Shown here: positions 4,249 through 32,120 of the stretch, in pieces
Layout of the letters: every line of letters starts with the position of its first letter
Numbering within the stretch: position 1 is the stretch's first letter
Source of the DNA: Candidatus Peregrinibacteria bacterium HGW-Peregrinibacteria-1
GTDB lineage: Bacteria > Patescibacteriota > Gracilibacteria > UBA1369 > LOWO2-01-FULL-3
DNA length: 64,000 nt
Reading direction: 5' to 3'
Assembly: GCA_002839505.1 (NCBI GenBank)
Contig: PGYE01000001.1
Location: 647,995 to 711,994, forward strand
The notes under the pieces: generated by a model
The model's input: the letters and a program-made list of their open reading frames with translations, nothing else
Told to the model about the DNA's origin: nothing
Database searches by the model: none
Translations under genes and position numbers: made by a program

Positions 4249-4287
4249 GACTATTGATAATCACTTTGTGTCATTCTGATTACGTCG

Positions 4288-4461
4288 AGCGATCATGTAT
4301 TACGGGTGTACAATCTTATTTTGTTTGGGCGTATCGGAACCTTTGCGGGCCGGTGCCGAAAGCAGTGAGGCGAGCAAAGGCGATATCTGAGGTGCAATTT
4401 CCCGCTGGGGAAATTGACGCCGTCCCAAGAAGAATAAGATTTCCACCCGCCCTTAATCGCT
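4288..4461 (+). ncRNA. candidate structured RNA / dispersed palindromic element, copy 1
   Basis: ~92% identical to 31849-32027 over the first 154 nt; closing helix agcgat/atcgct, helix aatcttatt/aataagatt, tggg/ccca, cctttgc/gcaaagg, perfect hairpin caatttccc-gctg-gggaaattg. Transcription and strand unproven. Confidence 0.6.
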
Positions 4462-4516
4462 GAAAGCAAAAAAATATAGTGAGGATTATTCCACCCCCTA
4501 AAACAGCCGACCAACA

Positions 4517-13385: not shown

Positions 13386-13718
13386 CTACCTCTTTCTCAT
13401 TGCACCAATCAAAACCGCACCACCTACCATCAAGGCCCACACGCCCGGTCCACTCACCGGCAAACTCGGAGGCGTTGTAGTTGTCGTGGTCGGAGTAGTT
13501 GTCGTGGTCGGAGTAGTTGTCGTGGTCGGAGTAGTTGTCGTAGTGGTAGTGGTTGTCGTCGGAGTCGTTGAAGGATCATCGTCCTCAGCACCGGTCAGAC
13601 TTGGGGGGCTACTATCAAAAGGCGATTCAATGTCAGGATTAGAGTCAACAGCAAACGCCATCGAAGCAAACATCACAGACACAAGCAAACTAAGACTGAA
13701 AAGTTTTATAAGTTTCAT
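13386..13718 (-). CDS. small secreted Thr-rich repeat protein with C-terminal sorting-signal-like tail
   Basis: Signal peptide MKLIKLFSLSLLVSVMFASMAFA; PTTTTT repeats; LPVSGPG + hydrophobic stretch + RKR terminus. Confidence 0.75.
   Translation of the reverse strand: MKLIKLFSLSLLVSVMFASMAFAVDSNPDIESPFDSSPPSLTGAEDDDPSTTPTTTTTTTTTTPTTTTTPTTTTTPTTTTTTPPSLPVSGPGVWALMVGGAVLIGAMRKR
13477..13545 (-). repeat. 18-bp in-frame tandem repeat encoding PTTTTT units
   Basis: gtagttgtcgtggtcgga at 13477, 13495 and 13513, then a degenerate copy. Confidence 0.9.
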
Positions 13719-13902: not shown

Positions 13903-13977
13903 CGCGGGGTAGAGCAGTGGCAGCTCGTCGGGCTCATAACCCGGAGGTCGAAGGTTCGAATCCTTCCCCCGCAACCA
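13903..13977 (+). tRNA. tRNA-fMet (CAT), CCA encoded
   Basis: Cloverleaf; C1-A72 mismatch; GGG/CCC anticodon-stem pairs typical of initiators; GTTCGAAT; ACCA end. Confidence 0.9.
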
Positions 13978-13990
13978 ACAAACATCCTTC

Positions 13991-14067
13991 GTCAGGGTAG
14001 CTCAGTTGGTGAGAGCGCCGGATTCATAACCCGGAGGTCGGGAGTTCAAATCTCCCCCTTGACACCA
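13991..14067 (+). tRNA. tRNA with CAT anticodon (elongator Met or lysidine Ile2), CCA encoded
   Basis: GTCAGGG/CCTTGAC acceptor, ttCATaa loop, GTTCAAAT T-loop, CCA. Confidence 0.85.
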
Positions 14068-31666: not shown

Positions 31667-31848
31667 AATCCTTGTGTTTTACATCCCTCCCATATTGATT
31701 TGCGTCATTCTTTAAACCATATAAATATAATTCAAAGCAGGATTCCGCAAGCTAAGGAAAGAACTGAAATATAAAGTGCGAAAAATCTATATCAAAAAAA
31801 CACCTAAAGCAAGGGAAAAGTTATCCCGAAGCCATCACGATTAAGCCG

Positions 31849-32027
31849 AGCGATCATGTATTACGGGTGTGCAATCTTATTCTGCCTGGGCGTATCGGAG
31901 CCTTTGCGGGCCGGTGCCGAACAAAGTGAGGCGAGCAAAGGCGAGATCTGAGGTGCAATTTCCCGCTGGGGAAATTGACACCGTCCCAAATAGAATAAGA
32001 TTGCACACCAAAGCCCACTTAATCGCT
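31849..32027 (+). ncRNA. candidate structured RNA / dispersed palindromic element, copy 2
   Basis: Second copy of 4288-4461; perfect 18-bp helix ggtgtgcaatcttattct (31866-31883)/agaataagattgcacacc (31992-32009); cctttgc/gcaaagg; caatttccc-gctg-gggaaattg. Confidence 0.65.
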
Positions 32028-32091
32028 GAGAGCAAAATTAAGTATGGGGAAAATTACCTCAGGGCGAGAATTACCTTTAACATTAAAATGC

Positions 32092-32120
32092 TTGCTACAA
32101 ACAGATAAAAACATTATAAT
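32092..32120 (+). promoter_or_regulatory. promoter of the RsbW-like/STAS/PrsW operon
   Basis: TTGCTA -17 nt- TATAAT, 23 nt before ATG 32143. Confidence 0.7.

Follow-up and report, generated by a model that had tools for sequence, protein, structure and literature searches.

A family of pseudoknotted palindromic elements, probably mobile, scattered across Patescibacteria and other bacterial phyla

Two segments of the 64,000-nt stretch of Peregrinibacteria DNA analysed here (the window) resemble each other closely, and a preliminary description had proposed that they are copies of a structured RNA of no recognisable class. We asked what kind of element these segments represent, how widely it occurs and whether it behaves as an RNA gene or leader, as a mobile element or as a site in DNA.

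Fold, pseudoknot and folded strand

Positions 4278-4441 and 31839-32002 of the window align over 164 nt without gaps at 91% identity, in agreement with the ungapped near-identity reported before. The two copies have folding-energy z scores of -5.10 and -7.30, and 0 of 200 shuffles folded as well. Covariance-model matches place the element proper, which we call element A, at 4304-4448 (copy 1) and 31865-32009 (copy 2), a length of ~145 nt, with the following parts.

4304..4448, + strand: element A copy 1, a P1 closing stem with P2 and P3 hairpins in a three-way junction (model matches R1/R2/R3; genome 652298-652442)
4304..4329, + strand: P1 5' arm gggtgtacaatcttattttgtttggg, partner 4424-4448 (fold, pair counts)
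4340..4346, + strand: P2 5' arm cctttgc, partner 4374-4380 (fold, pair counts, alignment)
4347..4350, + strand: GGGC motif in the internal loop of P2, first side of the pseudoknot (alignment A5, columns 53-56)
4374..4380, + strand: P2 3' arm gcaaagg (fold, pair counts, alignment)
4391..4421, + strand: P3 hairpin ggtgcaatttccc-gctg-gggaaattg-a-cgcc, with a single bulged A (fold, pair counts, alignment)
4403..4408, + strand: CGCTGG motif at the apex of P3, second side of the pseudoknot (alignment A5, columns 135-140)
4424..4448, + strand: P1 3' arm cccaagaagaataagatttccaccc (fold, pair counts)
31865..32009, + strand: element A copy 2 (model matches)

The helices listed in the preliminary description can be mapped onto this fold in part. 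Its cctttgc/gcaaagg and caatttccc-gctg-gggaaattg stems are P2 and P3, respectively; tggg/ccca and aatcttatt/aataagatt are both present but lie inside the one long P1 instead of forming separate helices, and agcgat/atcgct belongs to a second element, described below. The invariance that it noted in the inner stems holds between the two window copies only, as P2 and P3 change almost everywhere across the family, with compensation. Elsewhere in the window, we observed in-register short repeats of 18 bases (TCGTGGTCGGAGTAGTTG) at 13466-13575, in a stretch that is open on both strands and lies upstream of two adjacent tRNA genes (13903-14064).

An alignment of ten copies from the same genome, made with MAFFT and not fitted to the model, contained two-sided changes at 12 pairs (23 cells, compared with 8.9 in shuffles). 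Among these copies P2 (mean difference 0.008) and the unpaired core (0.038) were nearly invariant, the latter as expected from the earlier remark that putatively unpaired stretches hardly change, and the stems of P1 and P3 differed more, with compensating changes (mean difference ~0.2). A covariance model built from these ten copies only (R1) recovered full-length homologs in other genera, out of sample, with a best E value of 6.7e-18. In two larger alignments, which were fitted to the model and so are biased towards the fold, though the matches themselves were found out of sample, two-sided changes occurred at 44 of 48 pairs in 20 sequences from this genome and its relatives (253 cells; shuffles, 72) and at 46 of 48 pairs in 55 sequences (779 cells; shuffles, 227). 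Sliding the partner columns by one to three positions in the 20-sequence alignment destroyed the covariation signal. Across the family the fold has been retained through change at almost every position; the proposal of a conserved structured nucleic acid thus stands, and the objection that covariation might be lacking does not. We found no conserved reading frame in element A. A scan of the window and of the relatives' loci against Rfam (release 15) gave no score at or near a gathering threshold at element A, consistent with the earlier failure to match it to a known RNA class; a match to Gut-1 (E 0.68) was at chance level.

The internal loop of P2 (G-R-S-C) covaries with the loop of P3 (C-G-S-N-G-G). 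At column pair 55-137 of alignment A5 (the 55-sequence set), we counted 40 G-C, 10 C-G and 4 other combinations, and column pair 56-136 was C-G or U-G wherever readable. The C-G class at 55-137 occurs in one genome (G017), and alongside the G-C class in two others (G067 and G077). In a larger set, part of which was selected by a pattern that already contained the motif, the same pair was G-C in 125 cases, C-G in 8 and C-C in 2.

The P1 arms also carry information about which strand is folded. We aligned the two arms in 156 elements, scoring Watson-Crick pairs alone as matches, which puts G-U and A-C on an equal footing as mismatches; isolated mismatches were G-U in 135 cases and A-C in 47, where composition predicts a ratio of ~1.2:1. 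The plus strand as named is therefore the selected folded strand. RNA fits this strand best; single-stranded DNA would give the same bias, because in DNA, too, G-T is the less disruptive mismatch. On model columns, which include poorly aligned pairs, the G-U to A-C ratio in P2 and P3 was about 1:1. With P3 anchored on its loop, G-U accounted for just 2 pairs beside 877 Watson-Crick pairs, so P3 is uninformative on this point.

Copies, nesting and distribution

The source genome is a single 998,424-bp contig, in which BLASTN returned 28 pieces at ~16 places, all on the plus strand. A reverse-strand query recovered these places again, still on the plus strand, except for two short palindromic cross-matches. 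The final model found 15 good element A matches and one 31-nt fragment (E 0.03), again all on the plus strand, so that the element recurs as the preliminary description held, in many more than its two copies. The BLAST pieces derive from two interleaved palindromic elements, A and B. Element B is a second three-way-junction palindrome of ~140 nt with outer arms AATCTTCACC...TTATTTTGC / GCAAAATAAGTATGGTGAAGATT, and its parts in the window are as follows.

4264..4303, + strand: degenerate 5' arm of element B, with A nested inside (genome 652258-652291, 5 errors against the B motif)
4449..4487, + strand: element B, 3' arm ttaatcgctgaaagcaaaaaaatatagtgaggatt (genome 652447-652481, 4 errors against the B motif)
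32013..32055, + strand: element B, 3' arm of the one that surrounds copy 2 (B motif match; genome 680013-680049)

In both window copies, A sits within B in place of its tip, which is why agcgat/atcgct had appeared as an outer pair of A. The reverse arrangement, with B taking the place of the P2 tip of A, was found in the copies at 257k, 338k, 420k and 886k. Other sites of element B are at locus L027 (3141-3281) and at genome positions 138633, 257037, 338469, 493541, 885856 and 906259, and B shows two-sided changes at 5 pairs. We rejected a distant relationship of B to A (only 3.1 bits under the A model with filters off), an origin of B in 23S rRNA (alignment score 29, not above shuffles with a mean of 27.4 and a maximum of 38) and an Rfam match of B to RT-3 (E 0.19, chance level). 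In the Peregrinibacteria genomes G024 and G014 (flanks of L094, L096 and L099), A also seems to lie within a further, longer palindrome, ttatcaagctaaaaacggctgtgctatacggttt / accgcatagcgtagccgtttttagctcgataa, whose sequence is unlike B. At six loci from several distant genomes (L203, L204, L212, L213, L214 and L221), P1 is shorter and an outer motif, aagcga / gagcga, recurs; this motif is perhaps part of element A there.

An order-wide model search recovered element A in 12 of 90 genomes from several families (16, 16, 8, 7, 5, 5, 4 and fewer matches per genome, one of them weak). In a sample of the phylum it was present in 31 of 384 genomes. Because no more than 8 candidates were scored in any one genome, these counts are lower bounds; the 353 matchless genomes serve as a negative control. 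The element is missing from most relatives, including those of the same family. A core-pattern scan of GTDB genomes returned more than 120 stretches; 80 of these were checked, and most were confirmed by the model. Carriers within the Patescibacteria include Peregrini-, Berkel-, Nealson-, Sungi-, Uhr-, Jorgensen-, Magasanik- and Azambacteria, and carriers elsewhere include Omnitrophota (one of them a 1.1-Mb chromosome record), metagenome-assembled genomes (MAGs) of Deltaproteobacteria and Actinobacteria, WOR-3, Stahlbacteria and Bipolaricaulota. The core of Deltaproteobacteria copies is up to 86% identical to that of Patescibacteria copies, and mis-binned groundwater MAGs may contribute to some of the cross-phylum cases. 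Pattern matches in cultured high-GC actinomycetes were not confirmed by the model, and searches of plasmids, phages and IMG/VR gave no element A match. An exact-pattern GTDB scan with the core of the source genome was empty because the motif differs in other genomes, where the model and a wider pattern succeeded. BLASTN against 40 relatives also gave no match, so sequence search alone would have suggested a genome-specific element.

Most copies are intergenic, and some lie inside protein genes. In the isoleucyl-tRNA synthetase (IleRS) of a Berkelbacteria genome (G581; L218:4990-7971), the element is in frame and accounts for residues 662-711 (~50 residues), between the catalytic part, which aligns to residue 648, and the anticodon-binding domain, which begins at 713-715. 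In genome G014 it lies in frame between the N-terminal and chorismate-binding domains of PabB, and the other two in-frame hosts, both glycosyltransferases, are a GT2 enzyme, with the element antisense, and a PMT-like protein; the in-frame status of these insertions is partly a detection effect, because an open frame was required for detection. Patchy multicopy presence, nesting and insertions in genes together argue for movement of the element.

We looked for the machinery and the marks of such movement. The source genome was searched for two protein families, Y1 transposase (PF01797) and reverse transcriptase (PF00078), and has neither. Nothing in the analysis connected element A to an insertion sequence. 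The ends of the element, compared by eye, differ from copy to copy, with no shared terminal motif and no target duplication seen. As candidates for an autonomous version with a gene between inverted pairs, the open reading frames in that position were rejected, since their inspected translations are housekeeping proteins (ClpP, L7/L12, L10, TrmD) or hypotheticals; none of the genes in those inverted pairs that we examined looks like a transposase. Copies, inverted or direct, enclose one gene or a pair of genes at L198:7398-10052, L200:7198-8145 and L201:7030-7742, and the genes so flanked are ClpP-like, L10 with L7/L12-like and pterin dehydratase-like.

Orientation and explanations

The plus strand of the source chromosome is C-rich throughout, with a GC skew of -0.09 to -0.44 in 31 samples and no change of sign. 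One-sided skew over the whole length has been described for Microgenomates, where replication mostly in one direction was suggested (PMC7143001); here, we observe skew like that of some Microgenomates (PMC7143001) in a Peregrinibacteria-related genome. Among relatives from the order, in stretches with a skew above 0.1, 30 copies lie on the C-rich strand and 0 on the G-rich strand, and orientation is concordant within contigs that carry at least 2 copies. The flanking genes in these relatives are balanced in orientation (++ 11, -- 11, +- 11, -+ 13). Together, these counts indicate that orientation in this order tracks the replication strand, as judged from skew, and not transcription. Beyond the order the C-rich bias is weaker (21:5 and 32:9), and some genomes, such as G297 and G579, are unbiased, with copies on mixed strands. 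In the source genome, 0 of 18 copies lie between two minus-strand genes, compared with ~20% of gaps, and orientation there may have a transcriptional component.

From these data, we propose with moderate confidence that element A represents a new family of mobile palindromic elements, resembling Rickettsia palindromic elements (RPEs) and miniature elements of the MITE type, that act as a folded single strand with a putative trans-acting factor and are inserted or retained in a manner coupled to fork polarity. Under this proposal, the folded strand (RNA or single-stranded DNA) would be recognised by the trans-acting factor, recognition would lead to copying and insertion of element A, and insertion or retention would be coupled to the polarity of the replication fork. 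Once inserted, copies would survive mostly in intergenic DNA, frequently right behind stop codons, or in protein linkers that tolerate them. Preservation of P1 pairing in far-diverged copies would also fit a host function, and we count it against a mobile element. No transposase, reverse transcriptase or other trans-acting factor could be linked to element A, and its strand bias weakens beyond the order; both points also weigh against the proposal. A bolder version, which we consider doubtful, is a protein-free mobile element with a folded, pseudoknotted single-strand intermediate and fork-timed insertion, passed between phyla and forming a class apart from known transposase, reverse transcriptase and ribozyme systems.

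It is unlikely, in our judgement, that element A is instead a structured RNA family with a cellular function in trans or in cis (a small RNA or a leader or 3'-UTR RNA), multicopy in the manner of a riboswitch class. The fold, the pseudoknot and the near-invariant unpaired core are what such a family would show, as are the excess of G-U over A-C on the named strand of P1 and the absence of source-genome copies between two minus-strand genes. However, orientation in relatives is independent of transcription, most relatives lack the element even within the family, and there are copies that sit within coding genes and copies nested with B. We found no plus-strand promoter-like site upstream of either window copy. 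Copy 2 lies outside both predicted transcripts, between divergent promoter-like sites (minus-strand 31795-31768 and plus-strand 32092-32120, the latter downstream of it), although consensus sites of this kind are weak evidence. A leader would lie in sense orientation upstream of a regulated gene and inside its transcript, and neither the flank orientations nor the promoter-like sites place the copies in this way. A simple non-coding RNA gene or leader is therefore at odds with an element that is multicopy, patchy, nested with a second palindrome, in frame in protein genes and oriented by replication strand.

An ordinary double-stranded DNA MITE, in which the arms are complementary only through quasi-palindrome correction during replication and the folded strand is under no selection, would account for a multicopy, mostly intergenic element whose P1 is long, almost perfectly palindromic and different from copy to copy. 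Palindrome correction, however, cannot produce the G-C to C-G swap that links the P2 internal loop to the P3 loop, and it would erase conserved asymmetries, yet the unpaired core differs by 0.038 compared with ~0.2 in the P1 and P3 stems. The excess of G-U over A-C and the lack of conserved termini also oppose it. We regard this explanation as improbable and as largely refuted by the pseudoknot. Very improbable is a strand-specific DNA site, comparable to KOPS, chi or single-strand origins, that serves replication, segregation or recombination and has its orientation under selection, as the 30:0 count in the order and the uniform plus-strand matches in the source genome are offset by copies that are few, irregular, missing from most relatives, on mixed strands in several genomes (e.g. 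G297 and G579) and inserted inside genes.

Comparison with known systems

Element A, a structured element absent from Rfam, is carried by only a minority of Patescibacteria, though by diverse ones, and by members of several other phyla that are mostly uncultured. A genome can contain up to ~16 copies, and their sites include the inside of IleRS and the vicinity of ribosomal-protein genes. Its covariance model can be used for annotation, and the element provides a strand marker for one-sided chromosomes in some of these bacteria (for the Microgenomates case, see PMC7143001) and a test case for small palindromes that move without an obvious enzyme.

Rickettsia palindromic elements are palindromic, ~150 bp long, multicopy and patchy, and occur in frame inside unrelated protein genes (PMC10969869). 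Compared by description and not by sequence, element A is likewise a short palindromic repeat at many unrelated loci and is in frame in IleRS, PabB, GT2 and PMT-like genes, with most copies intergenic. RPEs are described by the peptide that they encode and are reported from Rickettsia, whereas element A is defined by a pseudoknotted fold, occurs in several phyla, is mostly intergenic and is strand-biased. With ERIC, BOX, RUP, Correia and other MITEs, it shares the form of short intergenic palindromes that are modular or nested, non-autonomous and often near gene ends; it differs in having a conserved interior and an outer stem free in sequence, with neither a conserved terminal inverted repeat nor a target duplication seen by eye, and no linked transposase was found for it in the searches described above.

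Integron attC sites are imperfect palindromes that conserve structure over sequence, act strand-specifically and lie just after stop codons, and element A resembles them in all of these respects. The conserved parts of attC are its ends (the R and L boxes), whereas the ends of element A vary and its interior is conserved; by inspection, the listed ends do not share the RYYYAAC / GTTRRRY ends of attC, and the neighbours of element A are housekeeping genes instead of cassettes. IS200/IS605 and REP/RAYT systems involve recognition of single-strand hairpins and a preference for one replication strand, but their fold and length differ from those of element A, whose source genome has no Y1 transposase. 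A retron or group II intron origin is likewise disfavoured, given the lack of a reverse transcriptase in that genome. Riboswitches and other Rfam classes share the three-way junction, the pseudoknot, a variable P1 and a conserved core; element A, unlike them, has no Rfam match and is not positioned as a leader. By analogy, and with membership claimed in neither group, element A most likely functions like RPEs and MITEs.
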